From NCBI GenBank assembly GCA_030753015.1, contig JASMDC010000003.1:1-64000 (forward strand): DNA of 64,000 bases, in the 5' to 3' direction. Under the pieces are notes generated by a model. The model worked only from the letters and a program-made list of their open reading frames with translations, searched no databases and was not told where the DNA came from. This document shows, piece after piece, positions 18,223 to 62,039 of the stretch. The DNA is from Candidatus Undinarchaeales archaeon. GTDB lineage: Archaea; SpSt-1190; JASMDC01. Position numbers and translations under genes: made by a program. Every line of letters begins with the position of its first letter. Positions within the stretch are counted from its first letter, which is position 1.

Positions 18223-18224
18223 AT

Positions 18225-29725: not shown

Positions 29726-29962
29726 TCATTTGCCATGCGGGCGAATGTTCTTTGCAACGAGCTCGACGATATCAGCTGCTTGTGCATCGGACCCGGACCG
29801 GGCAATGCCTTGTGAGAGTGCTCCAAGGCACGTTTGACAAGCAGTTGCCACAATCGTCGCACCCGTATCGAGCAGTTCGCTGACGCGCTCATCAGCAATG
29901 GCTTCTGGTGTTTCATTGCGGGTGATCCTCATGCCACCACGAGGCCCCTTGAGATGAGCACC
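29726..29962 (-). pseudogene. C-terminal fragment of a CCG-domain Fe-S oxidoreductase
   Basis: The frame encodes GPRGGMRITRNETPEAIA, VSELLDTGATIVATACQTC and a final ADIVELVAKNI. That is the last third of a CCG (cysteine-rich) domain as in HdrB/GlpC/LdhA-type oxidoreductases (G-G-x-R, then xTACxxCLxxL, then DIAELLA). The N-terminal Fe-S and first CCG parts are absent, and the frame begins at the end of the ABC permease. An internal ATG at 29932 would allow a 68-aa product. It looks like the remnant of a gene deleted at its 5' end. Confidence 0.55.
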
Positions 29963-29972
29963 TGCACTCGCA

Positions 29973-35548: not shown

Positions 35549-36724
35549 ATGCACACTGAACGGCGGGTCCAGACGCGCCCGCGCTTCTCCTTTTCAGCAG
35601 GGGAGCCCGTCACAGCGTCCGCAGCGCTGGGCTTGAAGGGCAAGCACCCGTCCGGAGCGCATCGTACAAAACACCTGGCAGCAACGATGTTCATAGGAGG
35701 ACGTTACCGTAAGGTGCTTGTCACCCTCTCACCGCACGCCCTGGTTATAGAGCGATGTGACCGGCAGGTCCGCCTCGTTGCGTGCGCTCCCCACGCCATC
35801 GAGCAGGGAGGTGAGGACACTCTGGACCATGATATCTGGACCGGCGAGGAGGCCATCGAACTGCTCCGGTCCGGCGCAGTGGACCGCTGTGTGATATCCC
35901 TTCACAACCGCGGTCTGCTCGACTTCAATCGCTTTCCCTCACAACCCTTCGTCCAGTACGGCCGCACGGTCCGGAATCCACCCTATCGCCAGCCTAATCC
36001 CTACCACGGTTCACTTGACGCGAAGGTTGTGCTCGACCTTCATGGTTTCAGGTCCGGGACCCATAGTCGCGGCATCATCCTCGGCATCGGGAGGGTCGAC
36101 GAACTGACAATGAGAGACAGCAGGTTCGTGGGGGCTGTAAGGAGCAGCGCATCCTTTGGAGCCAACCTCCTTATCAGGATAGCTCGCGAGGCTCTCCGGC
36201 GGAGCCCTGGGATGACGCTGGAGCTGCACGCTTCCCTTGACCTGGTACGGCTCCCCTGTACCGCGGGCAACGTCCCTCGCGTCGTTCTCACCGAAGAGCG
36301 CTTGGTAGAGATGGGATTCGTGAGCGGAGAGCTTGTCGCTCTCGGACTGATCCATGACCGCAGCGGTCGGGTCGCAGGGGTGGAAATATGTCGTGAGGCC
36401 GCGGACACCGACGACGAACTCGTAGTCGAGTCAGGTGATCGTGAACGAGTGGAGCTCCCACGAAAGCTCAAGGTGACGGAGCGGATCGACTTGAGCGGTC
36501 GGCACGTCTTCACGTTCACCGGGCGAGGATTCCGTATTCGTGATGGGAGCGCATTCCGTCGCTATCTCCCGGGATTGCGTAACTACACCTTTCGCTATCT
36601 AGCAAAGAGGGGTGTTGCTTGCGTCCAGGTCGAGCAGACCAAGGGAGTGCGAGAGAGTTTCGCTCAACGGCTATCTGGAGCAGGGTGCGTTTTCCGCGTT
36701 CCAGAGGGTCAACGCTGGATGTAG
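35549..36724 (+). CDS. Possible N-formylglutamate amidohydrolase-like protein
   Basis: Soluble 391-aa protein without signal or membrane helix. Two segments recall the N-formylglutamate amidohydrolase/AGR-like fold: HNRGLLDFNRFPSQPFVQYG (family pattern R-x-x-x-D-x-N-R) and LDAKVVLDLHGFRSG (D-x-H). RGIILGIG and ASFGANLLIRIA would follow in the expected order. The C-terminal 140 residues are unrecognised. The match is by eye and weak, so function should be treated as open. A TATA-like CATTTAACA at 35518-35526 precedes ATG 35549. The 3' end overlaps the convergent giant gene by 16 bases. Confidence 0.5.
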   Translation: MHTERRVQTRPRFSFSAGEPVTASAALGLKGKHPSGAHRTKHLAATMFIGGRYRKVLVTLSPHALVIERCDRQVRLVACAPHAIEQGGEDTLDHDIWTGEEAIELLRSGAVDRCVISLHNRGLLDFNRFPSQPFVQYGRTVRNPPYRQPNPYHGSLDAKVVLDLHGFRSGTHSRGIILGIGRVDELTMRDSRFVGAVRSSASFGANLLIRIAREALRRSPGMTLELHASLDLVRLPCTAGNVPRVVLTEERLVEMGFVSGELVALGLIHDRSGRVAGVEICREAADTDDELVVESGDRERVELPRKLKVTERIDLSGRHVFTFTGRGFRIRDGSAFRRYLPGLRNYTFRYLAKRGVACVQVEQTKGVRESFAQRLSGAGCVFRVPEGQRWM

Positions 36725-47700: not shown

Positions 47701-48933
47701 ACCGCGGTCCTCGCAATTGTCCTTATTGATCTCGACCCCCATGAACTCTACTTTATCCTTCATGTTCTTGCACATGACGTTCTTGACGATGAGCGGGCAA
47801 ACCTCGTACTGGAGTATGCAGGTGATGGTGCAGTTGAGGATCTTTTCCCCGTCCCAGATGAACTTCTTCTTCTTCACGTCGTAGTAGAAACCCTCGTTGA
47901 TACACTCGCCGCACTTGTAACAGATATCGAGGCAGGATGACTCATCGATGTCCACCGGCTCGTCGGACATCTTCTGGATGAGGGCGTCACCACCAGTGCA
48001 GATACCGGCACACATGGGGCCGATGATGAGCGCGCGGACGCCACAGGCCATGAAGCAGTTGGTTTGTTCCTGCTTACCATCCACGATGATGCACTCGCAA
48101 CAGTCCTCCACCAGTGCGTTGCACTCGTACTCCACCTGCACCTGCAGCGCCTTCTTCTGTGGGATGAAAGAGAATATCCCCTCCATCATGTTCTCGCAGA
48201 CCTCCCCCAGGAGTGGGGCTGCAAGCGTCTTGCACATGCATTTGCTGATGAGGCACTTGTTGAAGACCTCTTTCCGTCCCTTCGAGGTCTTGGGGCCACC
48301 TGAGGTGGGTATCAGCGTCAAGAGGCACTGACCACAGTTCTTGCATACGTTGAAGAGCAGTTCGTTATTACTCCGACAGGGCGCCTCGCATCCCATGATG
48401 TCCTCACAGACCTCGGAGAGGATTAGGTCACCTAGACAATGCTCGACCCAGCAATTGCTCTCCTTCGAATCACCGCCTGAGCCCGAGTCCGTGATGAAGC
48501 AGTCCAGGCACCCGCAACCGATCTCAACGCACTCGTCCGTGCGGACCCTGGGTATCCACGAGGATATGGCGTACTGGCAGGGGGGCTTGAGGATCATGTC
48601 GCAAAAGGGCTTGCCCAGGCACCGGATAAGGCAGGAAGTTCTCTTGCCCTCGGGCTCCAGGGCGCACTTCACGCACTCGATACGGGTGCAGAGCTTAGTG
48701 AGGAAGGGATCGCCACCGCACAGCTCCTTGCACAGGGGATTGATGATGGCCAGCAGCTGACGGATGACGCATTCCTGAAGACATTCACTGCGGGCTCCCG
48801 AGTCACTGATGCGAATGCACTCACCGCACTCGTAGCACATGTCGAGCATCTCGTCGCCCTTGATCGTGAAGTACTTACCAGAGGATGCCGTTGTGGGAAG
48901 GAGGAAGAGAAGGAACAGTACGAGCACCGCCAT
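41755..48933 (-). CDS. Giant cysteine-rich secreted protein
   Basis: Protein of about 2392 aa. After a signal peptide (VLVLFLLFLLPTTASS) there are about 16 modules of C-x2-C-x2-C-x(8-25)-C-x3-C (CYECGECIR, CYKCGECIN, CQKCTFCFF, CLGCTKCLW and others), interrupted by a block of EGF-like C-x4-DG-x2-C modules (residues about 590-930). A Cys-poor helical region (about 1440-1750) is followed by further CC-containing modules (ICCDDSCENVASCCEL) and three Ig-like/CARDB-type beta domains (about 1990-2340). It ends CDGCNPECSVEIRSGC plus a short Cys tail. No C-terminal membrane helix is seen, so it may be held by the anchored partner encoded 9 bases downstream. ATG 48933 has an adjacent GGGAGG. Function unknown. 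Confidence 0.85.
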   Translation of the reverse strand: MAVLVLFLLFLLPTTASSGKYFTIKGDEMLDMCYECGECIRISDSGARSECLQECVIRQLLAIINPLCKELCGGDPFLTKLCTRIECVKCALEPEGKRTSCLIRCLGKPFCDMILKPPCQYAISSWIPRVRTDECVEIGCGCLDCFITDSGSGGDSKESNCWVEHCLGDLILSEVCEDIMGCEAPCRSNNELLFNVCKNCGQCLLTLIPTSGGPKTSKGRKEVFNKCLISKCMCKTLAAPLLGEVCENMMEGIFSFIPQKKALQVQVEYECNALVEDCCECIIVDGKQEQTNCFMACGVRALIIGPMCAGICTGGDALIQKMSDEPVDIDESSCLDICYKCGECINEGFYYDVKKKKFIWDGEKILNCTITCILQYEVCPLIVKNVMCKNMKDKVEFMGVEINKDNCEDRGNFICQNCAYCLLAKPQGDESWGEAVGRCLLMNCLGGAVCTIACENFADVAFGDSNLFGGDIHLGYQQDSKYEDYDPESGVTTVTETYSEVTISDPQCEPSMKVGVCTDLCQKCTFCFFGPKEERTTCLQKCAFELGCKIACHTPIGCSVDALGDKLDSLVQTVLPATKNPCTGKADGDRCSKDGICFQSRCMKLADYNYQECAGKYQAVEDQCTMLTSGHACRTADGAEGVCMEGVQAGLSSGVEVGAYCKVLTQADCGKSGTSGMTCTASGGQKGVCTEKNGQWSCELATGGGSTCYRSKGTCLMLPNTPSECKGKKPPQYCKRMFGGGLACVRRARKIPITCKAPNSEGRPCTDPEKSGSSGFCFGGECHYGKSSGCTYKDPKTKKTKPAPDGYLCETTGHVCLKGKCMELGGNGREECSVAQQRQERGRKVWCSAGSGVCVYPGGRPPACIAHTIKVPSVCKQDGADGKVCFDDLTTRRGICMHGECLIELTPNCADYSNNLKMKSCYDVCDSCLACYDIEEKEKRNNCLKSCWNPLEIPCLTVCQDQLGLSGQELTRCVSTCVVCQGCPYGCNGDMEPAQLTECITGCLFHKSGIIITNICEELEASAGIDIGACLGCTKCLWAGGARKVRECLVNEGCINALDICQASCPWVCQGETSGPCFDQCCGCTECLFKDTKRSRDRCFLDCVCPPLITGLCEQACEGRDEGTYESCKEVCLGCGMCCRRPAGDRLACLGGCIGAQSLFIECDAFCSNFPNPLTCITCCRSNVQCAGKEGGEIKECLLEGTKDCVNGILFDICQELCGGEPGCMEVCQKCTMCPLTAPDLKQCAAQCIDDLAVEITNGICDAVCFSAYDKGGCMDDCQGCKGQCAFVEDVAARLACFEGCDKSGDSKLEAILTLYGIRMTCTALFAPGGVGSQLTGGGGSWGQMGAELAGEAVCMAFCLSGVACDVKFMKHFIACPEKAHPNLYIYYNTAVKYYENAITFYENILNNLVVIEVGMGVQTGFCVFAQGKELLQHGIGEMCLFGIPLYAPYPPMAGELWWNSCTVCWISSLASMLIPVQCQINKPFSSPIGIPFQIPTWSVAKECGKRTGIVDDICSVEPDLFSIGDTHDPMTYTFKVNQLTKYTNELVKDGGILKTGLMWVKKLREKARTCTVSGSCDNDIRQELEGLKASWQAADSVDVGKGGLTGGSESWSLEDYEEKLDEMSMWTKSFYNDASRSSSLEMIINRACSWNQFKEDDISPDYEKYIWRYGIITRCALYNLKTSSPGDFMWHDTDCLFYSASSDALGGPYEGGEEELPFEGEEEIDEECLGVRDGRQCMFGICCDDSCENVASCCELREDESQCNTISGNHGICCEGWCTADRESCEEVIEEEEDCIDDGDECSDGDGLCCNGRCFLERESCEGGGEEVCAGNDGVACDEGRGLCCDSSCVYNLEECPDGEVPVDDTCSPLCLQEHGTDGYCLPSSKRCACRTGLFPLVLEDARCEPALSEDTIERLEDYCDEQGSGEIDECHTSTSSSGYCCQGVLEEVPIGNEVVVSKRPKPSISALEWLDADGEPVRVAKVGEKLTLRAEITDYLDPLTNGELQLTVRTSTQTLLSRTIPDISVSPDTRRHISLELEVTAAMQNEVLLADAALLFAGNRVESEVMPRIFVPEPNTISVMDAAFFINDLRSTDAYPGDSVEAILEVVSSYSDTKQVSIIANLAEFQGTDISGTFNNDYPALEPYKPVAIKTGMLGSIGTYMAGGFINVTVVVKDRNDPSLIYTEIVLDAKRFPELALVVHNPYLTLTGIDFADSGGRMTESVYDGEDVTLRAKLRNDMGTNFQGNIELIVRDTDLNTVHREVFTNLEIFRGDDETLRTTFEARARRTSQEIEGGGSLILEPNDHVVELNAIDVNSAEWLDTVARTWRLRASPGGGGEEKVRILSTTRYDQCRLAIECDGCNPECSVEIRSGCTAVFNLCTCDNCMFKPLE

Positions 48934-49035
48934 CCTCCCTCGTAAAGCTACCAAAACTTTCCCCTCAGGCGAGACGCAAAACAGCTCTCGCTGACCAGTA
49001 TAGGATTATTCATTTGCACGCTTTAAACCTTTGGT

Positions 49036-51174: not shown

Positions 51175-51273
51175 GGTCCGCGAAAGCGCCTCCTTGCACG
51201 TATTCACCCTGCGAAATGGAGTGCTGGCCAACAAACTATATAAGGAGCCATGGGCACATCAATCTACAGGGAC

Positions 51274-51489
51274 ATGGCGACGCCATTGTCACGTCTGATG
51301 CGGGCGAACCGCGGGGAGGAGGAGCAATCCCTCCTGCTGGTAATCATCGTGGCAGTGATGGTTTTCGCCGTGCTCTGGCTCGCCATCGCAAAGTCGGGCC
51401 GAGCGGTCGCCCTGGTGTTCGCAGGTTTCTTCAAGATGATCTGGAGCACCATCAAGGGGATGACCGGGATGGATTACCTGTTCAGGTGA
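51274..51489 (+). CDS. Single-helix pilin-like protein, first gene of cluster
   Basis: 71-aa protein with basic motif RLMRANRG (residues 7-14), a short EEEQ, and a membrane helix (LLLVIIVAVMVFAVLWLAI) followed by a second hydrophobic stretch (AVALVFAGFFKMIW). ATG 51274 is chosen from a TATA-like ACTATATAAG at 51235-51244; ATG 51250 lies too close to it. Begins the 19-gene cluster. Confidence 0.65.
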   Translation: MATPLSRLMRANRGEEEQSLLLVIIVAVMVFAVLWLAIAKSGRAVALVFAGFFKMIWSTIKGMTGMDYLFR

Positions 51490-51494
51490 AGGGC

Positions 51495-51689
51495 ATGGGA
51501 CGGCTCACCGATCTTATTCGCAGTCGGCGCGGCGCCATGGGCGAAGCCATCGAGATCAACTTCTGGACCATCGTCGCTGTGCTCGTTGTGGCCGTCATCG
51601 TGTTCACGCTCTACAATTTTGCTCGACAGGCCCAGCCATCCTTCGTTCAATGGATAGCGGACATAATGGACATGTCCATGGGTGAGTGA
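51495..51689 (+). CDS. Single-helix pilin-like protein
   Basis: 64-aa protein: LIRSRRGAMGEAIEI, with the R-R-G/A boundary just before the helix FWTIVAVLVVAVIVFTLY, and a short amphipathic end (FVQWIADIMDMSMGE). A Glu lies at +4 to +5 from the predicted cleavage, as in class III signal peptides. Starts 5 bases after the previous stop. Role unknown. Confidence 0.7.
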   Translation: MGRLTDLIRSRRGAMGEAIEINFWTIVAVLVVAVIVFTLYNFARQAQPSFVQWIADIMDMSMGE

Positions 51690-51690
51690 T

Positions 51691-51945
51691 ATGGGTCTGC
51701 TCGCGAATCGACGGGGTGTCAAGGCCAACGTGTACGACTTCATGATCTTCGTAATAATCTTCCTGCTGGTGCTCATGCTGGTGTTCACCCTTGCTGGCTG
51801 GCGGATGGTCGAGATAATTCACAAACCTGCTGAGCAGTGGGGGGACGATACGGCCGGTAAGGCACGGGATAATATGGCCTGGAACGGGGTGAAGAAATCC
51901 ACAGGATTCATCACGCTCCCGATGGGCGGCCTCTCCCTCACGTGA
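51691..51945 (+). CDS. Single-helix pilin-like protein
   Basis: 84-aa protein with LLANRRGVKANVYDF then the helix MIFVIIFLLVLMLVFTLAGW and a 35-residue soluble end. Its ATG is one base after the previous stop. Ends the first mini-operon; a new promoter follows. Confidence 0.7.
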   Translation: MGLLANRRGVKANVYDFMIFVIIFLLVLMLVFTLAGWRMVEIIHKPAEQWGDDTAGKARDNMAWNGVKKSTGFITLPMGGLSLT

Positions 51946-51988
51946 AATTGGTAGGTAGGTACATCAAATTACTACTACCCAATGACAA

Positions 51989-51999
51989 CTTATATAAAA
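51989..51999 (+). promoter_or_regulatory. TATA box of the main surface-protein operon
   Basis: CTTATATAAAA, the best TATA match in the area, about 40 bases before ATG 52035, in the 89-base gap after the first three genes. A GGGAG ribosome-binding-like site at 52024-52028 is consistent with a leader of about 15 bases. Confidence 0.6.
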
Positions 52000-52034
52000 C
52001 TGTACGTATATAGTAAGTAATAGAGGGAGCACTC

Positions 52035-52247
52035 ATGCTACGCACCCTAATCAGGTCGAAACGTGGTGAGTTGGGCGGACCCACCCGCATTACTCTCAAG
52101 AAGATCCTCCCCGCGCTCATCATGATGGTGCTCTTCCTGCTCGTAGGCTTCGCCTTGCTCCGTTCACGCGGCTATCTGGACTTCGAGACCCTTACGGGCA
52201 CGTTCTCCAAGACCGTGGAATCGGGGATGGATATAGGAGGGATGTAG
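52035..52247 (+). CDS. Single-helix pilin-like protein
   Basis: 70-aa protein: MLRTLIRSKRGELGGP, then a basic turn and the helix ILPALIMMVLFLLVGFALL and a 25-residue exposed end. First gene after the strong TATA box. The N-terminus is the clearest example of the L-I/M-R-x-x-R-G motif shared across the cluster. Confidence 0.7.
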   Translation: MLRTLIRSKRGELGGPTRITLKKILPALIMMVLFLLVGFALLRSRGYLDFETLTGTFSKTVESGMDIGGM

Positions 52248-52251
52248 CACG

Positions 52252-52443
52252 ATGGACGTACGCCACCTGCACCCATTGAAGAAACTGCGCCGCCTGGGAC
52301 GCGACCAGCGCGGCATTACCATGTCACGAGACATGCTCATCGGGACCGTGATCGCCCTGCTCATGCTGGCGTTCCTGCTCATGGTCATCGGTGACCGGAT
52401 CGTGCCCATGGCGAACTCGGCGCTCTCGTGGGGACCAAAATGA
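52252..52443 (+). CDS. Single-helix pilin-like protein
   Basis: 63-aa protein with a basic N-terminus (KKLRRLGRDQRG, residues 10-21), then ITMSRDMLIGTVIALLMLAF as the hydrophobic segment and a short end. It starts 4 bases after the previous stop and overlaps the next gene by ATGA. Confidence 0.68.
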   Translation: MDVRHLHPLKKLRRLGRDQRGITMSRDMLIGTVIALLMLAFLLMVIGDRIVPMANSALSWGPK

Positions 52444-52874
52444 ACACACGTCGCGGGGTCGTTGGTATATTCTACCTCGTCCTTGCGGCAGTGATAACAC
52501 TGGCAGTCTCGATCCTCATCATGCAGTCAATGTACAGCAGGGCCGCCAATGCAGGGAAGAAACCGACCGATCAGGGCCTTCAGGGCAGGATCGTCGCTCT
52601 CTGCACTCAGCTCACCGGCCCGGACACCGTCGATGCAACAGAGACCATTGATCTCCCCGCCAAGGTGGACAGCCGCGAGGTCGCACGCCTTGTGATTGTG
52701 TACTGCTTCCCGGGGGTCTCTCCCGGCGATATCACGGTAGAGACGGACTGTTCGCGCGAAGCTCCAGGACACGTTCTCCACTGGTGCGGGCCTACCGAGC
52801 TGCTTGGTACAAAGCGCTTTACAGCAGAGATGTCCCGTGACACGGAGTTCGACGTCCGATTGAGGGTGAGCTGA
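52440..52874 (+). CDS. Pilin-like protein with Cys-containing ectodomain
   Basis: 144-aa protein: MNTRRGVVG, then the helix IFYLVLAAVITLAVSILIM, then a roughly 110-residue ectodomain with four Cys (ALCTQL, YCFPG, TDCSRE, WCGPT), probably two disulfides. Start overlaps the previous stop (ATGA). Unknown function. Confidence 0.7.
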   Translation: MNTRRGVVGIFYLVLAAVITLAVSILIMQSMYSRAANAGKKPTDQGLQGRIVALCTQLTGPDTVDATETIDLPAKVDSREVARLVIVYCFPGVSPGDITVETDCSREAPGHVLHWCGPTELLGTKRFTAEMSRDTEFDVRLRVS

Positions 52875-53468
52875 ATGATAGCCGTCGACTCGTTCCGCAA
52901 GGTCGTGGGATTCGTCGTCATTCTAGGTCTCATCGTTGCCCTCATATATGGCGTTGCTCACGAGAGGATATCGCGCGTGGGGAACAAGTTCGTTGACATG
53001 TTCGCGTGCCCCCCCCTCGCAACCTGCGGCACTGGATCAAAGAAGGAGTGCCCCATCTTAGCTAGCCTCGAAATGCCGATCCTCACTAAAGGCGACTCGC
53101 TCATGGCCGGCAAGTGCCGACTTCGCATATGCAACCGGAAGTCCGTTGGGGGTGAGCCCAACCGCGACTATCGGGTGGAGGTCTGCCGGAGCGCCGTGGC
53201 CAATCCCGGTAAGAAGGGGGTGGCCGAACAGGAGTGCGTCCTCCTCACCGATCCTAAAGGTAAGGTGAAGCAGTTCAACCTCGCAAAGGAAGGGGTGACC
53301 GAGTATGAGTGTGCCAATGTCTGGCGCCCTGCCGATCTCGACCTCACCCGGTCTGAGCGCGAGGTATCGATAGACCTGACAATCAACATCAAGAACAGCA
53401 CTGGGCTGTTCAAGGTGGTGGACACTAAATGGAACGTACGCTACCAGCATCCGCTCGACGAAGCATAG
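52875..53468 (+). CDS. Single-helix membrane protein with Cys-rich ectodomain
   Basis: 197-aa protein with an N-terminal helix (VVGFVVILGLIVALIYGV, residues 10-27) and a large ectodomain with about eight Cys (MFACPPLATCG, KKECPIL, GKCRLRIC, EVCRS, QECVLL, YECANV). The C-terminal part is strand-rich (EREVSIDLTINIKN), like a small Ig-type fold. Starts directly after the previous stop and overlaps the next start by 40 bases. Unlike its neighbours it lacks a clear R-G before the helix. Confidence 0.68.
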   Translation: MIAVDSFRKVVGFVVILGLIVALIYGVAHERISRVGNKFVDMFACPPLATCGTGSKKECPILASLEMPILTKGDSLMAGKCRLRICNRKSVGGEPNRDYRVEVCRSAVANPGKKGVAEQECVLLTDPKGKVKQFNLAKEGVTEYECANVWRPADLDLTRSEREVSIDLTINIKNSTGLFKVVDTKWNVRYQHPLDEA

Positions 53469-53659
53469 GGCAGCTGATCCGCGGTGAACGCGGCGGGATG
53501 GCCGACGCCCCAATCTATTCTTTAGCAACGCTTATATTGGTGGCTGTGTTAATCTACCTCGTATACACATGGTTATCAAGCAAACCAGAGATGATCACAA
53601 ATGTCTTCGGAAGGACCCTAGACATGCTTACAGGAGCCTTTGAGGGGTTTTTAGGATGA
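53429..53659 (+). CDS. Single-helix pilin-like protein
   Basis: 76-aa protein: RRSIGQLIRGERGGMADAPI followed by the helix SLATLILVAVLIYLVYTWL and an amphipathic tail. ATG 53429, inside the previous gene, is preferred to ATG 53498 because it keeps the shared L-I-R-x-x-R-G motif. Overlaps the next gene by ATGA. Confidence 0.65.
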   Translation: MERTLPASARRSIGQLIRGERGGMADAPIYSLATLILVAVLIYLVYTWLSSKPEMITNVFGRTLDMLTGAFEGFLG

Positions 53660-54117
53660 ATAAGAAAGGATCTATGGACACGTCGGTCGCAGCCCTTATA
53701 GCCATCGTACTTGGTGTAGGCGTTATTGCCTTCGGTGTCTATGGGCTCAACAAGGGCCAACGGACCTCGGACAATGTGGGCGTCATGGGAGATGCGGCTC
53801 GAAGCCGCCTCGATCCCCGGACGCTGGGTAAGTGCGCTGACTGGCACGATGATGGATACCCGCTCGGTATCGACGTCCTTCAGTACACCTATGGCTTCCC
53901 CACTATGTTTACTGGACAGACTATTTCTGGATGCAAGAACCTCCCTGACAAGATGGCAAAAGCCAGGGAAGAAGGCATCCCGAGCTTGAAGTTCAGTGAC
54001 AGTGATGTGAAGCGATGCGCTACCTACTGTGCAAAGATCGCACAGGAACGGGACAAGTGCATGTCCCAGCGCGATCCGCAGGCATGCATGGCCGAGGCAT
54101 TCGCAAAGGTAAGATAA
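53656..54117 (+). CDS. Cx3Cx9C surface protein, paralogue 1
   Basis: 153-aa protein with a short class III-like leader (MNKKGSMDTS, K-K-G before a helix VAALIAIVLGVGVIAFGVYG). The ectodomain has Cys 60 in C-ADW, then C121-x3-C125-x9-C135-x8-C144 near the C-terminus (RCATYCAKIAQERDKC). The same spacing recurs in the next three genes. Probably a disulfide-clamped helical hairpin. Overlaps its upstream neighbour by 4 bases. Confidence 0.75.
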   Translation: MNKKGSMDTSVAALIAIVLGVGVIAFGVYGLNKGQRTSDNVGVMGDAARSRLDPRTLGKCADWHDDGYPLGIDVLQYTYGFPTMFTGQTISGCKNLPDKMAKAREEGIPSLKFSDSDVKRCATYCAKIAQERDKCMSQRDPQACMAEAFAKVR

Positions 54118-54136
54118 CCTGATACGGGGAACTACC

Positions 54137-54670
54137 ATGAGGAGACGGGGTTCGTTAAGTCAGTGGTTGGGCGGGCGCGCCAGCATGAGCGTGAGAGTTC
54201 GTCGCGCCACCATCAATCTGAGCCTTGGCATGCTTGTAGCAATGGTGTTCGTCGTGCTCCTCGTCGCAATGGGTGCGCTCTCAGCCAGTCGTACCAAGAA
54301 GGATGTGCAGAAAAGGTCCAAGGAATTCACGGTCCAGGTCCGCTCTCAGCTCCTCTCTGCCAATCCTGTTGCGAAGTCCTGCTCCTTGTGGTTCTCCCAG
54401 GGACTTGGTATGCCCACGGCCGTTAACTACTACAAGGTCCCCAGTTCGTCCAAGTATGCCACCTGGGGTTGCTGCGACGACCTGGATGGGCTCGAACATG
54501 ACAAGCTCAACGCCCAAAAGGTGAACAAGTGCCTCAAATCGTGTGGTCAGGCACTCTCACTGTTGGAGCGTTGTAGCCAGGACTGGGACATCATGGACGG
54601 AGGCAAGTACGAGGATGCCCAGACCTGTTACAAGTCACGGTTCGAAAAGGACGTGAGGTGTGTCTCATGA
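54137..54670 (+). CDS. Cx3Cx9C surface protein, paralogue 2
   Basis: 177-aa protein: basic leader (RVRRATINLSL) before a helix (GMLVAMVFVVLLVAMGAL). Ectodomain with C82 in C-SLW, CC at 112-113, then C132-x3-C136-x9-C146-x17-C164 (KCLKSCGQALSLLERC). Start may be ATG 54137 or the later ATG 54185. Paralogous to its neighbours; ATGA overlap with the next gene. Confidence 0.75.
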   Translation: MRRRGSLSQWLGGRASMSVRVRRATINLSLGMLVAMVFVVLLVAMGALSASRTKKDVQKRSKEFTVQVRSQLLSANPVAKSCSLWFSQGLGMPTAVNYYKVPSSSKYATWGCCDDLDGLEHDKLNAQKVNKCLKSCGQALSLLERCSQDWDIMDGGKYEDAQTCYKSRFEKDVRCVS

Positions 54671-55077
54671 TCCGGACCCGCGCCCAAATGAGCTTCATGC
54701 CTCTTGCCGTGGTCATCCTTGGCCTCCTCTTCCTCACCATCGGGCTCATCCTCATCTACAACGCACGCGAAATCCAGAAGTCCGAGAAGGATATCGTCCT
54801 GTTCGAGAGTATTACATCGATACACAACATCTGCCGGTTCTGGAAGAATCCGGGACTGTACGTGGATGTCGCCATGCCTAATCAGCTTGGCGCGGCCTTC
54901 GAGTCTGCGGGGCTGAACAAAGTCAACCCATGCTCAAACAACGCAGACGGCATCAGGTATTGCATGCTGAAGTGCGAGGCGCTGGAGCGGCTCGTAATGG
55001 TGTGTAATGTGCACGGAAATGAGCGCAATGTGGAAGAGTGTAGCTCAACCAATATACGGAGCTTGCTGACGAAATGA
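54667..55077 (+). CDS. Cx3Cx9C surface protein, paralogue 3
   Basis: 136-aa protein: leader MIRTRAQMSFMPLAVVIL with R-A before Q-M-S, like a class III signal peptide, then helix GLLFLTIGLILIYNA. Ectodomain has C56 in C-RFW, C89, then C99-x3-C103-x9-C113-x11-C125 (YCMLKCEALERLVMVC). Start overlaps the previous stop by ATGA. Smallest member of the four. Confidence 0.75.
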   Translation: MIRTRAQMSFMPLAVVILGLLFLTIGLILIYNAREIQKSEKDIVLFESITSIHNICRFWKNPGLYVDVAMPNQLGAAFESAGLNKVNPCSNNADGIRYCMLKCEALERLVMVCNVHGNERNVEECSSTNIRSLLTK

Positions 55078-55086
55078 GGGAATGTC

Positions 55087-55650
55087 ATGACTAGCGAAGG
55101 GCTGATGCAGGCGCTGGTGGTGTTCATTCTGGGACTGGTGGTGCTTGCCGCCGGCGTCCAGATGCTTTCAAGGGCCAAGAAGGTCACCATGAGGAGCGCT
55201 GTCATCCCCAGTGACTACCAGGAGCTCGGCCGAATGAAGAAGCTTGTGGATAACTGTGGCGAAACAGGGTGGGGCGCGGACCTCATCCGTGGCAAGCTCC
55301 TCTCAGGTAAGGTCGAGTGCGACACTACCTGTAAGGCCAACTTCGCGGAGCACTACCGGGAAATCCCACGTGCGGTGAATGGTCTGAAGTTCATCGAGAA
55401 GAAGAGCCGGTTCTGCTCCTCCTCGGGGTGCCCGGCTACGCGCCGGTGCGCCGAGGCGATGGAACTGGCGAGCATCGGCAGTACTTCGACTTATAAAGAT
55501 AAGTTGAAAGGATACGCTGAAGCCTGTGCCCAGGTCTGCGCTTGGAGCATGCAACGTTATGAAGTGTGCGCGTCCCAGATGGCGGAGGTGTACGCCAAGG
55601 GAAGTGGCTTCAGTTCGCCCTGTGCAGACAGGGAGGCTGAACTACCGTAA
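55087..55650 (+). CDS. Cx3Cx9C surface protein, paralogue 4
   Basis: 187-aa protein with an N-terminal helix (ALVVFILGLVVLAAGVQML) preceded by few charges, so no clear R-G boundary. C57 in the C-x4-W context, C78/C82, a small C-SSSG-C cluster near 110-121, then C147-x3-C151-x9-C161-x17-C179 (ACAQVCAWSMQRYEVC). Largest of the four tandem paralogues. Confidence 0.75.
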   Translation: MTSEGLMQALVVFILGLVVLAAGVQMLSRAKKVTMRSAVIPSDYQELGRMKKLVDNCGETGWGADLIRGKLLSGKVECDTTCKANFAEHYREIPRAVNGLKFIEKKSRFCSSSGCPATRRCAEAMELASIGSTSTYKDKLKGYAEACAQVCAWSMQRYEVCASQMAEVYAKGSGFSSPCADREAELP

Positions 55651-55662
55651 AGGTGAGGGAAA

Positions 55663-56160
55663 ATGGTTCCATCAACGACATCGAACCGGGGCCAGGGGCA
55701 GCCGGTCTGGATTCTCGTGGCCGTTCTTCTAGCGGTCATCGTGGCCGTGACCATGTATCGGCTCGTCACAAGGCTCGACGTGGATGAGCTGCCTGACATG
55801 GACAGTGAGACGGCAACGACCCGATTCACGCAGCAGTGCAAACAGTGGGATGACATGGACTGGAACCAATACAGCAAGCCCAAAGTAACGGAATCCAAGC
55901 ATTCCATGGAGTTGTATGCTTGGCGTGCGAACCAAATCCTTACGAAGGAGGAGGTTGAGGCTGGCAAGCAGGTCCAGCCGTGCGACTGTATCGTCTACCT
56001 CCACATGCGCAACCTCATCGACTACGGTGAGGTCATCCAGCTGTGGAAGCAGCACAAAGAATGCAATTCCTGGGCCAAGAACACCGGATGCTCGAAGAAC
56101 TTCTGTGGAACGGCTTCGGCAGCCTCGGAGTGCAAGAAGGCCCATGCGTGCCCTACCTAG
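55663..56160 (+). CDS. Single-helix Cys-rich surface protein
   Basis: 165-aa protein: NRGQGQPVWILV with R-G/Q before the helix (WILVAVLLAVIVAVTMY). C59 in C-KQW aligns with the first Cys of the four preceding paralogues, but the C-terminal Cys pattern differs (CDCIVYL, then ECNSWAKNTGCSKNFC and two more Cys). Probably a diverged relative. Overlaps the next gene by 17 bases. Confidence 0.72.
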   Translation: MVPSTTSNRGQGQPVWILVAVLLAVIVAVTMYRLVTRLDVDELPDMDSETATTRFTQQCKQWDDMDWNQYSKPKVTESKHSMELYAWRANQILTKEEVEAGKQVQPCDCIVYLHMRNLIDYGEVIQLWKQHKECNSWAKNTGCSKNFCGTASAASECKKAHACPT

Positions 56161-56749
56161 TCCCTGCCGACGCGCCACCATCGACGTGTTCGGGCTGGTC
56201 GCTCTAGCAATATTCGGCCTTATAGCGGCCGTCCTCCTCATCCGTTTCACCGGGCTCACGATGGGTGCAATGGGCGAGACCCATGCCGCCAAGAACATCA
56301 ACGAGATAGTCGTGGGGGCCCGTAAGGCCTGCCGGGACGGTGAGGCCGTCGTGAGCGCCTTCACCGTTCCCGAGCAGTACGCGTACGTGGTACGCACCTG
56401 CAATCTGTGGGAGTGCACTGACGGCAACTGCCAGGACGAGACGATCGCCGGCCATAACTGGCCCCTGGACGCCGATAGCAAGCGCAAGGTGTTCGACAAG
56501 TTCTGCAACGGTCGTGACTCACAGAACCTCCTGGCCGCCTGCTACATAATCTATGGCGTCCACCACGACTGGGGACCGCTGGGGCAGCTCATGGGATGGA
56601 AGCGCATCGTCGCAAAGACGCGTAAGTGCGAGAACATCCACTGCGGCATACCCTACGATATCAATCTCATCATGCCCGGCAAGCAGAAGTACCGCATGAA
56701 CATCGTCAGGGACGGCGAAGCCCTGGTGGGGAGGCAGTACGATGTCTGA
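56144..56749 (+). CDS. Pilin-like protein with Cys-containing ectodomain
   Basis: 201-aa protein starting inside the previous gene. Leader SPCRRATIDVFG (R-R-A boundary), helix LVALAIFGLIAAVLLIRF, then Cys residues in ARKACRD, TCNLWECTDGNC, KFCNG, AACYI and KCENIHCGI. The ectodomain is rich in Trp, Asp and Lys. Overlaps the next gene by 8 bases. Function unknown. Confidence 0.72.
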   Translation: MRALPSPCRRATIDVFGLVALAIFGLIAAVLLIRFTGLTMGAMGETHAAKNINEIVVGARKACRDGEAVVSAFTVPEQYAYVVRTCNLWECTDGNCQDETIAGHNWPLDADSKRKVFDKFCNGRDSQNLLAACYIIYGVHHDWGPLGQLMGWKRIVAKTRKCENIHCGIPYDINLIMPGKQKYRMNIVRDGEALVGRQYDV

Positions 56750-58037
56750 GCTCCTTGGTCGCAAGCGGGGCCTCCTGGGCATCAAGTTCTGGTTCATGGT
56801 ATTTGTGGTCATGGCGTTCATGGTCGCCGTAAGCATGGCCATGAACATCCTCTATGTAGGACAGACCGTGCGGGCCGCGGACGAGCTCGGCCGGATCAAA
56901 ACGTATTTGGAGGCCGTGTGCCACGGGAACGTTGGCGACTACCGTACCTTCGGCGCCCCACCGTTCGGCGTGATCGTACGAGTAGACTCTTGTGACAAGG
57001 TGCTCGCGAAGAGCGCGGTCCGGGGTGCGGTGGGCGTGGGCGTGATGACAAAACACATAACATCGATCGCCAACATGGGCAAGAAGCCCAAGGCCCTCAA
57101 GCAGATGGCCGACAAGGCCGACGATCTCGCGAAGATGTCGGGCTCAAATGTGAAGACCGCCACTGATGCCGCTCGGATAACCGAGGCCAATCAGGCGCTT
57201 ACCAAGAACCTGGCCATGTTCAAGGATCCTAGCAAGAGACTCTTCCAGATACCTGTCCCCTCGAAGATGGCAGGGGTCCACAACAAGGTGGTGATGGCCC
57301 TGGACAAGACCGGCATCGTGTCAGCCAACGGTGCCAAAGCCCAGAAACACATCGTAGAGATCTACAAGATACAGGGGCAGCTGGGCCGCACCAAGGACGC
57401 AGCCCAAGCGGCCAAGCTGTATGCTCAATGGGGCAACCATGCCGACGAGGCCTACAAACTCGCACACACGGCCGGTCGGTTCGGCACGGGAATGAAGTTT
57501 GCACAGGGCGCGCTGTACACTAGCTGCGTGGGCACGTCTCTTGCAGGTTATGTCAAGGAGGTCGATGTCGTACCGGAAGGGGCCCAGAAGGCCATCGAGG
57601 ACGTCCACACGGCCACACGTGACTTCATCTCCGATAATGCGGGGCCCGCGGGCGGGACGGTGGGCGCCCTCCCCGCCGAGGGAGTCCCATGCCTAGCCTA
57701 CTCGCTCTCGAGAGGGGCGAGCCTCAAGGGCGCCACTGGATTCCTTGGTGGCGCGGTCACGAGCACGGCCTTCAACATCCTTGGTGGTCGGATGCTCGGT
57801 CAATCGGCCGCCATGATATCCAGCTTCGCTACCCGGTGCCCGGGAGCTAGTAATGGCCTGGCAATCTGCGTCCAGAAGTCCAAGTGCGAGGGCGATGAGA
57901 AGGGACCGTGCTCCGCTTGCGATGTTATATCCTGTCGTGTCCCCATCAAGGTTGAGTCCCGCCCCTTCGATCCGAAGATAACCGTTTCCCATGAGGGCGA
58001 CGTCGTGAAGCTCAATGGGGGTGTCGAGCCATTCTGA
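56742..58037 (+). CDS. Large pilin-like protein with Ala/Lys-rich helical ectodomain
   Basis: 431-aa protein: LLGRKRGLLGIK then helix FWFMVFVVMAFMVAVSMAMNIL. The ectodomain is mainly helical and Ala/Lys-rich between residues 100 and 270, with Gly-rich helix-packing segments later (GATGFLGGAVTSTAFNILGG), and a Cys-rich end (CPGASNGLAIC, KCEGDEKGPCSACDVISC). One of the three large members of the cluster. Unknown. Confidence 0.75.
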   Translation: MSELLGRKRGLLGIKFWFMVFVVMAFMVAVSMAMNILYVGQTVRAADELGRIKTYLEAVCHGNVGDYRTFGAPPFGVIVRVDSCDKVLAKSAVRGAVGVGVMTKHITSIANMGKKPKALKQMADKADDLAKMSGSNVKTATDAARITEANQALTKNLAMFKDPSKRLFQIPVPSKMAGVHNKVVMALDKTGIVSANGAKAQKHIVEIYKIQGQLGRTKDAAQAAKLYAQWGNHADEAYKLAHTAGRFGTGMKFAQGALYTSCVGTSLAGYVKEVDVVPEGAQKAIEDVHTATRDFISDNAGPAGGTVGALPAEGVPCLAYSLSRGASLKGATGFLGGAVTSTAFNILGGRMLGQSAAMISSFATRCPGASNGLAICVQKSKCEGDEKGPCSACDVISCRVPIKVESRPFDPKITVSHEGDVVKLNGGVEPF

Positions 58038-58039
58038 GG

Positions 58040-58522
58040 TTGCTCGCGGCCAAGCGCGGCCAGGCATCCACCGTGTCCGAGTCCCTCTCGGAGTTCGCCA
58101 AGTTCGTGGCGGCCATCATAGTCTTCGCCCTCGTCCTCGGGGCGTTCCTTGCCCTTCTGGTCAACATGCATAAGCTCTCCCTCATCATGAACGCCCGCAT
58201 CGTGGCCGACGCCATCGCAGGGGCGATAGCGGCGGTGTCCACAGCACCCGACCAGGCCACGTTCTGCTATACTGTCCCCTCATTCGCTACATACCGCGTC
58301 GTCATCGGCGGCGGGGCCGTGCTAGTGGTGCAAGCAGGAGAACAGGCCTTCGGTATATCCCCCTACCCTGTTCCGGGCGTGGAGTCCGCCGAACTCCTCG
58401 TTGGCAAGGACCAGATGAGCGCGGTGATCGTCATTCGCAAGATACGTGTGGGCGCCTCCGAGCAGATATCGGTGACGGCCCCGGAGGAGTTCGAGTTAAA
58501 GCGGTGCGCGGAGGTTATCTAG
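58040..58522 (+). CDS. Pilin-like protein with class III-type signal, TTG start
   Basis: 160-aa protein beginning LLAAKRGQASTVSESLSEF and then helix FVAAIIVFALVLGAFLALLV. The K-R-G/Q-A-S boundary is the best match in the cluster to the archaeal class III (EppA-type) prepilin motif with Q-x-S at +1 to +3. No ATG or GTG precedes it; TTG 58040, two bases after the previous stop, is the likely start, and the upstream stop TGA overlaps a TGAGG that may act as a Shine-Dalgarno. The ectodomain is strand-rich and nearly Cys-free. Confidence 0.7.
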   Translation: MLAAKRGQASTVSESLSEFAKFVAAIIVFALVLGAFLALLVNMHKLSLIMNARIVADAIAGAIAAVSTAPDQATFCYTVPSFATYRVVIGGGAVLVVQAGEQAFGISPYPVPGVESAELLVGKDQMSAVIVIRKIRVGASEQISVTAPEEFELKRCAEVI

Positions 58523-58523
58523 G

Positions 58524-60158
58524 ATGCTCGAAGAACAGGTGTTCATAATCGTGATGGTCATCCTACTTGTGACCATTGTCGGTGGCGGGGTTTCTGCCTG
58601 GTTCAAGTTCACCGAGTCCATTGAGAGCGACGTCGAGTACCGGGCTGCCGTCAAGGTGGCGCACAGACTCGCAGGCTCATCACAATGCCTCACCTACCTC
58701 TCCGCGACACAACGCGCGAGCAAGAACGTGCTCGACGCCAACAAGCTCAAGCTCGCCAACGAGGTCTACGGCAGCGACCGTTCCAAGGGGCTCTTCTCCC
58801 TTGGGGGTCTCATGGGACTCGGGAGCGCTGACGGGAACCTCCCCCGCGAGCATCCGTGCGCCTTCCTCATGGGATTCCGATGGCAGGCCCATATAGTTGA
58901 TCTTGAGTTCTTCACCGACATGGAAGAGGAACAGCGAGAGGAGCTCTCTGAACGGTACGGCTGCCTCCTAGCTAAGGACTCGTGCTTATGGGATATGGGG
59001 AAACCCTTTAGCTTCACACCGCGCCTTGAGCACCTTGAGGCGAAGGACGCCGAGGAACGAAGCGATGATCACTTCTGCAGCGGCCAGGACTGGTGCGCGA
59101 GCATGAAGAACAGCTTGGATAAATGTCTCAGTAAGGGGGATGAGGACCTCAAAGGGCTGACGAATCCAACGGCCCCGGTGAAGATCCCGATCACAATCGC
59201 TATCACCAATGAGATCGGCCAGCTCGAGAAGCATATGGGCTATCTCCAGGTCGTGGTCATACCCAGCGATCGCCACTGCACCCGCGAGGACTACGGGGAG
59301 CGCGCATTTTACATGGGTGAGAACACGGCGATAATCGGTAAAGAATGCTGTCTCTTCGACCTCCAGGAAGGCGTATGCCGCGGAAACCTGCGAGCCGCGC
59401 AAGCGGTCCAGGCCAAGTTCGCCCGCACGGTGTACATTTTCTCAGGGGTCGGGACGCTCGCCAACCTAATAACCGGCCACTGCCCCGAGTACGAGTACCT
59501 CGCGAAGGATGATTACATCGCTTGTGGCTGTGAGAACAAGGGGCAGCCAATGGAGGTCATCGGCGTCGATGGCCCTCCAGTGGTCGGCACCGGTTGCCCG
59601 CGGAACAACTTCTTTGCCGTAAAGGTACAGAACCGTAACTGGGAGAAGCCTGCCACCGTGAAGGCCATCAAGCTCACTGTAGGGGGTAACGACTATCTGC
59701 CCTGCACGAAGGACACTTGTGGTCTGCCGACGGGAACGATCTGGGTGAATCCCTCCGAGGAGGTCGATCCCCGCTCGGTGGCCACCTACGTGTTCGGGGT
59801 GCCGGCCGAGGACCTTTCCGGCGACGAGGCCGAGGTCACCGTCACCATGGAGTATTCTGTCCCCAAGATTTCCTCACCCTACAAGAAGCCCAAGGACTGC
59901 CGGGAGTCGGGACACCTGTACGTGTGCACTCACATCCTCAAAGCGACCTATCCCGCCACCGGGTGCGTCGGGGAGGGATTGAAGGACGCGTGCATGGGCC
60001 AGATATGCAGCAAGGATCAGGTGTGCTGTTCTGCGGGTGGATGCATTTCCAAGGAGCGCAAGAACCATTGCGAGGCGGCGGTGACTGGGTGGGACAGCCT
60101 GAAGAAGGAAGGCGAGGCCCTCATGAAGGGCAGTCAGGAGGGCGAGAAAGATGCATAG
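58524..60158 (+). CDS. Large Cys-rich surface protein of the cluster
   Basis: 544-aa protein with an N-terminal helix (VFIIVMVILLVTIVGGGVSAW). The ectodomain has about 26 Cys; one part carries WCASMKNSLDKC (C-x9-C as in the four paralogues), and the end has CMGQICSKDQVCCSAGGC, similar to the C..G.CC modules of the giant protein at 41755-48933. Strand-rich regions near residues 375-470 may be an Ig-like domain. Overlaps the next gene by 8 bases. No R-G boundary before the helix. Confidence 0.78.
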   Translation: MLEEQVFIIVMVILLVTIVGGGVSAWFKFTESIESDVEYRAAVKVAHRLAGSSQCLTYLSATQRASKNVLDANKLKLANEVYGSDRSKGLFSLGGLMGLGSADGNLPREHPCAFLMGFRWQAHIVDLEFFTDMEEEQREELSERYGCLLAKDSCLWDMGKPFSFTPRLEHLEAKDAEERSDDHFCSGQDWCASMKNSLDKCLSKGDEDLKGLTNPTAPVKIPITIAITNEIGQLEKHMGYLQVVVIPSDRHCTREDYGERAFYMGENTAIIGKECCLFDLQEGVCRGNLRAAQAVQAKFARTVYIFSGVGTLANLITGHCPEYEYLAKDDYIACGCENKGQPMEVIGVDGPPVVGTGCPRNNFFAVKVQNRNWEKPATVKAIKLTVGGNDYLPCTKDTCGLPTGTIWVNPSEEVDPRSVATYVFGVPAEDLSGDEAEVTVTMEYSVPKISSPYKKPKDCRESGHLYVCTHILKATYPATGCVGEGLKDACMGQICSKDQVCCSAGGCISKERKNHCEAAVTGWDSLKKEGEALMKGSQEGEKDA

Positions 60159-60750
60159 GGAGTCCATCCGACGTCTCCTCGCCCGGGCGCGTCGGACCCG
60201 CCGCGGAATGGGGATGGGCACGGCCTTCACCGCGGGCCTCACCATCATGACCGTGGGGCTCGCCCTCATCGTCGCGACATCCCGCATCAAGGTCAACGTC
60301 ATGCTTGCAGAGGAGCAGGCATGGGATCCCACCTACCAGCTCCTACTCTCGCTGGCCGAGTCCACCGTTGTGATACGTGAGGGCGACCATCGTGCGGTGC
60401 TGAGCACGTTCGACATCCTCTCCATGGTGGGAGCGACACAACAGTCCAAGGTCGTCGTTCGGGTTGGTGGTAAGAGCATTACCGTTGACGTGAACGAACT
60501 GCTGGAGAAGAAGCTCAAACGTCCTTTCCAGCTCATCGGCCGGAACCAGGTCCATATCGTGCTCACGGATATGGACCAGAAGAAGGTCATCGTTGAGTAC
60601 CCGCGGCGCAACACCGTGGACTATCGTGCCTGGCTGGAGAAGGAGAACTTCGAAGTAAGCCGCGTGACCTCGGCCCGTATGCTCGTCCCGCTCCCTGACG
60701 GCACATCCACGGCCACGCTCCTCCTCCAGTATGCGGAGGTGTACTCATGA
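60151..60750 (+). CDS. Pilin-like protein with strand-rich ectodomain
   Basis: 199-aa protein with a strongly basic N-terminus (RRLLARARRTRRG, residues 7-19), then MGMGTAFTAGL and a helix (LTIMTVGLALIVATSRI). The ectodomain has no Cys and predicted alternating strands (SKVVVRVGGKSITVDVNELL). Overlaps both neighbours (8 and 4 bases). Confidence 0.72.
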   Translation: MHRESIRRLLARARRTRRGMGMGTAFTAGLTIMTVGLALIVATSRIKVNVMLAEEQAWDPTYQLLLSLAESTVVIREGDHRAVLSTFDILSMVGATQQSKVVVRVGGKSITVDVNELLEKKLKRPFQLIGRNQVHIVLTDMDQKKVIVEYPRRNTVDYRAWLEKENFEVSRVTSARMLVPLPDGTSTATLLLQYAEVYS

Positions 60751-62039
60751 TGCGACGCCGTCTCAACGTCGGCCGGTCCCGCTCGGCAGTTGGCTGGTTC
60801 CTATGGCTCGCTCACGCGACCCGCGGCGTTGCCCCGGCAGTGCTCATGCTCGGTGCATCGGTCGCGCTCACCATCGGGATGTCCATGTACGTCACTGCCA
60901 AGCTCCAGGGGGACGCGGTCGTGAAGTCCATTACCCAAGAGGCGAAGATACTCAAGCGGATCCATATCAACGAGGCCGCGCGGCTCTACGCACGCCAATC
61001 CATCAGGACCGTTGTGAACCAGGCAGTGGCCGATGTTCTGCGTTACGGTGGTTTCACGGACCCCGCCTTCACCGCTCTTGGGACCGTGACCATAAGTCAG
61101 AGCAAGGTCGTGCTGCTCGAGAAATGCGAGCAACAAGGGGGAGGTGATGTGACGTGGAAGAAAGCGTGCGAGCAGGAGCTCGATCCGTTCCTGGAGGGCG
61201 ACATCACGGTCATAACGGAACGCGCTCGCGAGAGCATAGGTCAGCTTGTGCCCGAACGGATCGGGGCCGCCGTAGCAGCACATAACCGCGAGGACCAGGA
61301 CGCCATGATTCGTCTCACCTCGCCGGACATCCATATGGACTTCAACGATGATGCCGTGTCTGTTATCGTCCCGCTCAACATCACTACCTACCTTTCCAAC
61401 AAGATGGGCGTTGTCTCCTCGCCCGACTATGTTTCCGAGACGGTGCAGGTGCGCATGATGAGGCTCTTTGAGATCGGGCTGGAGGTTTCACGATTGGACC
61501 TTCACGAGCGTAGCCAAGAGGCACTGTGCGGCGTGTGCGACCGCTATCCCGATCGGCGCCCGATGGCAAAGGACCTGCGTACCATCATGGACGAGGCCCT
61601 TGACAAGATCGAGGAAGAGTATGCCGAGGAGTATGCCGACGATGGTATCACGATCTCCATCTCCCTTGTCGAAGGGACCCAGTTCCACATCTTACCGACG
61701 GCAAAGCCCTTCGATCGGGTCGAGGAGGATGGTGTGTCGGTCGTTAGCTGGAATGAACCGGAAGCGGATGACGCACCAGTTCCCTGGCAACTGTACATGA
61801 ACGGCGAGGTGGCCGAGGATCCTGCGAGCGGAAAGAAGAGCGGTCGATACGGCCTGGGCGCCGATCTTGTCATCCATGTCCGTGCAGAGGACCAGCGGAC
61901 CTACCTCCCTTATTTGGTACAGCGTGGCACGAAGATAGACTACGAGTACCGGCCCATCGCTGTGGAGTTCGTGCTCAAGAAGCGTGTGTGGGAGGGCGAC
62001 GACTCGAAGTGCTCCCTCACAGCCGAGTGCGAGGGATAG
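60747..62039 (+). CDS. Large pilin-like protein, last gene of cluster
   Basis: 430-aa protein with basic N-terminus (MMRRRLNVGRSRSAVGW), helix (APAVLMLGASVALTIGMSMYV, about 28-48), then a long amphipathic helix (QEAKILKRIHINEAARLYA) that continues the transmembrane helix as in pilins, and a large ectodomain with one C-GVC pair and an ordered end. Its start overlaps the previous stop by ATGA. No gene follows closely. Confidence 0.75.
   Translation: MMRRRLNVGRSRSAVGWFLWLAHATRGVAPAVLMLGASVALTIGMSMYVTAKLQGDAVVKSITQEAKILKRIHINEAARLYARQSIRTVVNQAVADVLRYGGFTDPAFTALGTVTISQSKVVLLEKCEQQGGGDVTWKKACEQELDPFLEGDITVITERARESIGQLVPERIGAAVAAHNREDQDAMIRLTSPDIHMDFNDDAVSVIVPLNITTYLSNKMGVVSSPDYVSETVQVRMMRLFEIGLEVSRLDLHERSQEALCGVCDRYPDRRPMAKDLRTIMDEALDKIEEEYAEEYADDGITISISLVEGTQFHILPTAKPFDRVEEDGVSVVSWNEPEADDAPVPWQLYMNGEVAEDPASGKKSGRYGLGADLVIHVRAEDQRTYLPYLVQRGTKIDYEYRPIAVEFVLKKRVWEGDDSKCSLTAECEG

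Follow-up and report, generated by a model that had tools for sequence, protein, structure and literature searches.

The cluster and its predicted surface proteins

The genes described here form a cluster at 51274-62039 of a 64,000-nucleotide window (the whole stretch of DNA that was analysed) from a Candidatus Undinarchaeales archaeon. This window belongs to contig C51 (154,779 bases) of genome G000, an assembly of 3.85 Mb in 117 contigs with a completeness of 98.9% and a contamination of 5.0%; other genomes and contigs are likewise cited by their G and C numbers. Nineteen open reading frames (ORFs), g01 to g19, were confirmed to be present, all on the plus strand. An earlier reading made from the letters of the DNA (the sequence-only reading) had described them as consecutive and tightly packed with overlaps, and this description was borne out: overlaps occur at 8 of 18 junctions, in four cases of 4 bases, and the intergenic gaps from g01 to g19 are 5, 1, 89, 4, -4, 0, -40, -4, 19, -4, 9, 12, -17, -8, 2, 1, -8 and -4. 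A TATA-like sequence, ctatata, at 51236-51242 upstream of g01 makes the start at 51274 plausible. A second one, ttatataaaa, is located at 51990-51999 inside the 89-bp gap before g04, and the cluster may therefore comprise two transcription units. Searches of Pfam and NCBIfam with g01 to g19 gave no usable family match for any of the proteins. The genes are as follows.

g01, 51274-51489, plus strand: small, single helix, ANRG before the helix; no family; start set by the TATA-like sequence
g02, 51495-51689, plus strand: small, single helix, SRRG
g03, 51691-51945, plus strand: small, single helix, NRRG
g04, 52035-52247, plus strand: small, single helix, SKRG; TATA-like ttatataaaa upstream
g05, 52252-52443, plus strand: small, single helix, DQRG
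g06, 52440-52874, plus strand: single helix, NTRRG (strict class III-like), 4 ectodomain Cys
g07, 52875-53468, plus strand: single helix, without K/R-G motif, 8 ectodomain Cys
g08, 53429-53659, plus strand: small, single helix, GERG
g09, 53656-54117, plus strand: pilin-like, MNKKG, 6 Cys; weak matches to G002 and G004 array proteins
g10, 54137-54670, plus strand: pilin-like, RVRRA, 8 Cys; weak match to the G004 array protein L048:13732-14310
g11, 54667-55077, plus strand: pilin-like, RTRA (strict), 6 Cys
g12, 55087-55650, plus strand: Cys-rich, single helix, g12/g13 family, 10 Cys; 7 homologues in the arrays of G001, G002, G003 and G004
g13, 55663-56160, plus strand: pilin-like, NRG, 8 Cys; 24 homologues
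g14, 56144-56749, plus strand: pilin-like, CRRA, 8 ectodomain Cys
g15, 56742-58037, plus strand: pilin-like, RKRG, large ectodomain; orthologues in G002 and G004
g16, 58040-58522, plus strand: pilin-like, AKRG, TTG start; opens a conserved four-gene module; SLT/lysozyme-like domains on the G002 and G202 homologues
g17, 58524-60158, plus strand: single helix, without K/R-G motif, 26 Cys, 544 amino acids; orthologues in G002 and G004
g18, 60151-60750, plus strand: pilin-like, TRRG; orthologues in G002 and G004
g19, 60747-62039, plus strand: pilin-like, ATRGVAPAV (strict), last gene, 430 amino acids; G002 orthologue fused to M23; paralogues on C26, C41, C21 and C117

Exactly one helix, near the N-terminus, was predicted in each of the 19 proteins, as the sequence-only reading had stated. 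Directly ahead of this helix, [KR]G was found in 13 proteins (shuffle mean 5.8, P=0.0005) and [KR][GA] in 16 (shuffle mean 9.3; 0 of 2000 shuffles reached 16; P<0.0005), while g07, g12 and g17 were without K/R-G/A. The earlier count of at least 12 proteins with a basic stretch before the helix was confirmed by these figures. That the stretches are prepilin-type signals is supported by the enrichment of K/R-G/A, but a FlaFind-like consensus fits 9 of the 19 proteins, and its strict class III form fits a minority of 4. In other arrays, which are described below, K/R-G preceded the helix in 127 of 214 proteins versus 36 by shuffling (maximum 52). Cysteines were present in 12 ectodomains of the window, always in even numbers (2 to 26; P=0.00024), and the 214 proteins of the other arrays had 143 even and 18 odd ectodomain counts. 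Such even counts are as expected for extracellular disulfides, and they support the earlier proposal of Cys-rich, disulfide-stabilised ectodomains.

The same observations could be explained more simply if the proteins were anchored surface proteins of N-in/C-out orientation, the K/R-G reflecting the positive-inside rule only and no assembly machine being involved. Polar spacers after the motif and the lack of the motif in g07, g12 and g17 would agree with this explanation. However, G follows K/R far more often than in composition-preserving shuffles, both in the window and in the 214 other proteins, the arrays of relatives directly follow ATPase and FlaJ genes, and the helix of the g13 group is more conserved than its ectodomain. 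Simple anchoring is therefore regarded as very improbable.

The proteins g12 and g13 belong to one family, which has several copies per genome. In an alignment of six g13-group sequences the helix was 50% identical and the ectodomain 25%, and in a wider g12/g13 set the helix was only slightly more conserved. Greater conservation of the helix is therefore not a general rule for all families, and this idea was rejected: the difference is clear in the g13 group, slight in g12/g13 and absent in g16. On contig C63 (L009:404-2686), near another pilus ATPase and two platform genes, a 761-amino-acid protein was observed that combines DsbA-like thioredoxin domains with a C-terminal g13-like domain. The position of a g13 ectodomain at the end of a DsbA-like protein may be taken as a further sign of disulfide chemistry.

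Motor genes and related arrays

No match to PF00437, PF00482 or PF01478 was obtained within the window, in agreement with the sequence-only reading, which had noted that ATPase, platform and peptidase genes were missing there. All matches were on other contigs of the genome, where the genome-wide search it had suggested detected all three components: ATPases at six places, platform proteins at seven and prepilin peptidases at four. The A24 prepilin peptidases over the cut-off, on C42, C117 and C28 (two), are not linked to the cluster. On contig C26, an ATPase (PF00437, E=4.8e-14) is followed by a fused double FlaJ, a 954-amino-acid protein and a paralogue of g19. With the ATPases of three relatives, of which two have arrays directly after them, this ATPase shares 51-53% identity, versus 22-26% with the ATPases on C40, C55, C63 and C75 of its own genome. 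When its profile was compared with the PDB, it matched the Archaeoglobus GspE (2oap), CpaF and FlaI. The fused double FlaJ on C26 escapes PF00482; compared by hhalign with the T2SSF proteins of the genome, its profile gave a probability of 93% (E=2.8e-7).

The homologous cluster that the sequence-only reading had proposed to look for was found in related genomes. G002, from the same class, has the ATPase, the fused double FlaJ and then about 15 single-helix proteins, the last of which are colinear homologues of g12, g13 and g15-g19; G004 shows the same order downstream of FlaJ. Arrays directly after ATPase and/or FlaJ were present in G001, G002, G003, G004, G005, G006, G008 and G009 as well as in other families, and those class members whose contigs are long enough (L064, L097, L098, L099, L100, L101) have ATPase and fused FlaJ followed by arrays. 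The fused double FlaJ was detected in 10 of 10 genomes searched of the class; among 394 archaeal genomes, 167 have it (E<=1e-15). About 60 fused-FlaJ loci were read; in many, ATPase and FlaJ are followed by as many as 18 single-helix proteins, and others had none directly downstream. The automatic array walk undercounts arrays in GC-rich contigs, for which hand-read lists were used, and a scan with ATPase-derived patterns gave only three loci, the patterns being too specific.

The genes g16-g19 form a recurring closing module, which is kept in G000, G002 and G004; in other genomes it was recognised by position together with similarity to g16 or g19. Homologues of g16 occur in other archaeal families (G067, G133, G202, G210, G378 and others). 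Searches with g18 or g19 alone gave few homologues, because these families diverge fast. Most array genomes are small (0.5-1.5 Mb), and by this size they would fit DPANN archaea. The 3.85 Mb of G000 compare with 0.6-1.1 Mb for nine other genomes searched in its class; G000 is either unusually large for the group or a partly mixed bin (contamination 5%).

Because the ATPase and FlaJ of relatives precede colinear arrays, the C26 ATPase is orthologous to theirs and a g19 paralogue is located on C26, we conclude from these comparisons that the window holds the predicted subunit array of the C26 ATPase/FlaJ machine, split from its motor genes.

Peptidoglycan hydrolases and giant proteins

Pfam searches revealed hydrolase domains within membrane-anchored array proteins of five other genomes from four families; they belong to several unrelated enzyme classes and are mostly found at g16-g19 positions. 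In G002, the g16 homologue carries SLT (1.7e-7) and the g19 homologue M23 (2.6e-16). In G202, SLT_3 (1.7e-9) was detected on the g16 homologue and Amidase_2 (9.4e-29) on the last array gene. In G274, SLT (4.8e-4) and M15 (9.5e-17) are encoded by consecutive genes, after which comes one at the g19 position; G115, from the same family, has M23 (7.3e-19) at the position of M15 in G274, and another of its array genes has Glucosaminidase (1.4e-5). The g19-position protein of G075 combines Amidase_2 (7.4e-28) with SLT (4e-12). An array gene with a GH5 domain (6.1e-14) was found in G378. A Pfam scan of 80 proteins also gave Glucosaminidase and M26_N matches, the Glucosaminidase case of G115 being separate from these. 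The SLT proteins of G095 (divergent, beside an array), G055 and G202 C4 were excluded from the array proteins. In G095, the gene for a 724-amino-acid membrane protein with SLT (L052:7294-9465) is situated between two FlaJ-array loci, on the strand opposite to theirs. Most SLT and M23 proteins of archaea are encoded elsewhere, and a general assignment of these proteins to FlaJ-array loci was rejected.

In the window's own genome, hydrolase domains were found on giant proteins. The cluster is preceded on the other strand by one giant without such a domain, and a further large gene adjoins it:

2,399-amino-acid giant, 41755-48954, minus strand: Cys-rich; precedes the cluster on the other strand; without Pfam match
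1,678-amino-acid protein, 36709-41745, minus strand: Cys-rich, with C-terminal helix; beside the 2,399-amino-acid giant, with which it has a 145-amino-acid stretch in common; no Pfam match over the cut-off

The C-terminal region of the 2,399-amino-acid giant (about 200-400 amino acids) matches giants on C41, C21, C53 and C20 (E 3e-12 to 1e-6), which carry M23, SLT or NlpC/P60 domains. On C21 and C41, a giant with M23 (on C21 also SLT), a protein of about 950 amino acids and a g19 paralogue form a cassette; C117 has a similar trio, in which no enzyme domain was detected. The proteins of about 950 amino acids are mutual paralogues with 28-61% identity. The giants on C53 and C20 both have M23, and that on C20 (L195:1136-7594; 2,153 amino acids) has NlpC/P60 as well (M23, 1.4e-34; NlpC/P60, 9.1e-19). 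Since G002 encodes g19 and M23 as one polypeptide, the gene-fusion argument speaks for a functional connection of g19 proteins with hydrolases. The 2,399-amino-acid protein is a possible effector of the machine.

On C41 (L197:11635-17623), tandem paralogues of about 470-515 amino acids adjoin the cassette of giant, 950-amino-acid and pilin-like proteins. Three of them have a stretch like EWT(I/V)(L/M)(V/I)YSA(A/S)DNNLE, which we take to resemble clostripain-type peptidases. Elsewhere in the window, a transposase-like ORF of 570 amino acids (18187-19899, plus strand; judged by reading the ORF) is situated amid housekeeping genes, and the G+C content falls to 43-48% at 26001-30000, versus about 60% around it, downstream of a gene like that for the large subunit of DNA polymerase D.

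Giant proteins of this kind might also be the substrates of a pseudopilus like that of the type II secretion system (T2SS), g01-g19 being a short piston that pushes giant Cys-rich proteins through the S-layer with no long pilus. Such secretion would agree with the giant M23/SLT proteins encoded beside g19 paralogues, with the archaeal GspE-type protein (2oap) as the best solved relative of the ATPase profile, and with ectodomains that are very diverse for a filament. In G002, G202, G274, G115 and G075, however, the enzymes are covalent parts of membrane-anchored array proteins, which favours display over secretion, and a secretion piston is considered distinctly unlikely.

The fusions also bear on a second alternative, an ordinary adhesive archaeal type IV pilus with unusually many minor pilins, for which the hydrolases of relatives would be lineage-specific and irrelevant to the window organism. 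In favour of it, archaea are known to have pilus loci that encode several minor pilins (Makarova et al. 2016, PMC4858521), and g16-g19 of the window are without an enzyme domain. Unrelated hydrolase classes nevertheless recur in arrays of separate families, and the genome itself has g19 paralogues beside M23/SLT giants whose C-terminus is shared by the 2,399-amino-acid neighbour. A purely adhesive pilus is thus regarded as somewhat unlikely.

Proposed function and comparison with known systems

It is highly probable that the cluster is the subunit array of an archaeal type IV filament. The pilin-like interpretation of the sequence-only reading has gained support from the homologous cluster in relatives, the motor and peptidase genes in the genome, K/R-G above chance and the even cysteine counts. 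That the filament machine also has an effector-presenting tip module and serves contact with other cells is, as a whole, a probable reading, of which the tip-effector part is held with less confidence than the filament subunit array.

Each protein would be inserted N-in/C-out via its single helix and trimmed after K/R-G, probably by one of the A24 peptidases of the genome. By orthology, the C26 ATPase and fused double FlaJ would then draw the helices out of the membrane and assemble them as a filament or pseudopilus. The small g01-g08 would form its shaft or base, and g09-g15 would decorate it as disulfide-stabilised subunits; g16-g19 would be a module of four subunits, presumably located at the tip, with a layout comparable to the HIJK minor-pilin complex. 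An effector would be shown at the tip: in relatives, peptidoglycan-cutting domains grafted on array subunits; in the window organism this role would more likely fall to giant Cys-rich proteins that are encoded separately, such as the 2,399-amino-acid neighbour. In this way hydrolases could be delivered to a bacterial wall. The most likely function suggested here is to make contact with the envelope of another cell and possibly to open it.

Several observations weigh against this interpretation. None of the 19 proteins matches a known pilin model in Pfam or NCBIfam, and a recognised hydrolase domain was found by Pfam in 0 of 19. The motif is absent from three of them, many have a short polar or charged spacer after it, and by the FlaFind-like consensus an uncharged stretch directly follows the site in only four (g06, g11, g12 and g19). 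Structure predictions do not establish a pilin fold: the AlphaFold model of g13 (predicted local distance difference test, pLDDT, 47) was too poor for use, and a low-confidence single-sequence model of g16 (mean pLDDT 62.6) predicted a helix at 6-67 followed by eight strands and gave no credible match in a Foldseek search of the PDB. In its own genome the cluster is separated from the ATPase and FlaJ, and the pairing of motor and cluster therefore rests on orthology and the g19 paralogue. The SLT match of G274 and the Glucosaminidase match of G115 are under the curated cut-offs, and an SLT match in G378 is not significant (0.03). Within 17 kb of FlaJ loci of related genomes, 4 of 39 SLT and 2 of 24 M23 hits were located, versus about 1.5 and 1.0 expected; because this co-location is only modestly above expectation, the hydrolase argument rests on the fusions, not on counts. 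Many of the comparison genomes are classified as archaeal only.

A more far-reaching version, which we put forward tentatively as a possibility, is that small-genome archaea possess a wall-piercing pilus. It would be a type IV filament with interchangeable peptidoglycan-cutting tip enzymes (lysozyme/SLT, amidase, M23, M15, glucosaminidase), used for attaching to and breaching bacterial partners or prey. Some lineages would have the enzymes fused to subunits, whereas others, the window organism among them, would supply them as giant Cys-rich proteins at the tip.

It has long been an open question by what means small-genome archaea touch other cells, hold on to them and exploit them, and a widespread locus with hydrolase-bearing pilin-like subunits offers a concrete and testable candidate contact device. 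Isolated reports of peptidoglycan hydrolases in archaea would thereby be connected with a machine for their delivery, and many protein families left nameless by current libraries would gain a likely role. In the open-access literature, mostly titles and abstracts and with subscription papers and preprints mostly outside it, no account of the array or of the enzyme fusions was found.

As surveyed by Makarova et al. (2016, PMC4858521), archaeal type IV pili have, like the present system, a VirB11-family ATPase, a FlaJ/TadC platform, a prepilin peptidase and several minor pilins per locus, the pilins often being encoded away from the ATPase. In contrast to them, the array subunits are recognised by neither Pfam nor NCBIfam, the fused double FlaJ is missed by PF00482, up to 19 diverse and often Cys-rich subunits occur, and some arrays contain peptidoglycan hydrolases; no such array is described in the consulted passages of that survey, which cover an older genome set. 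The archaellum and the Tad pilus have related ATPases (FlaI, CpaF) but a different array composition; archaellin, FlaF/FlaG and Flp families were not among the 19 proteins by Pfam or NCBIfam, and FlaH was not searched for.

M23 and transglycosylase-type enzymes of archaea have been proposed or shown to act on bacteria, as reported by Strock et al. (2025, PMC12352652) for archaeal peptidoglycan hydrolases and by Vigneron et al. (2022, PMC9723730) for the murein transglycosylases of Woesearchaeota. The main texts of both papers are without mention of pili, whereas the enzymes considered here belong to a pilin-like array.

The likening of g16-g19 to HIJK (GspHIJK/FimU-PilVWX) is an analogy of layout; the H, I, J and K families were absent among the significant Pfam and NCBIfam matches of array proteins. 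In GspHIJK/FimU-PilVWX the last of four neighbouring minor pilins is the largest, whereas the sizes of g16-g19 vary among genomes and the largest in the window is g17 (544 amino acids), not the last gene g19 (430 amino acids). As in the HIJK tip complex and the modular pilins of Streptococcus sanguinis (PilA/B/C, PMC9934059), neighbouring minor subunits would be tip-located and modules are grafted on a pilin-like moiety, and a very large separate tip effector (PilC/PilY1) exists in other species (PMC9934059). The modules of these pilins are adhesins or lectins, whereas those of the arrays are, in five relatives, peptidoglycan hydrolases.

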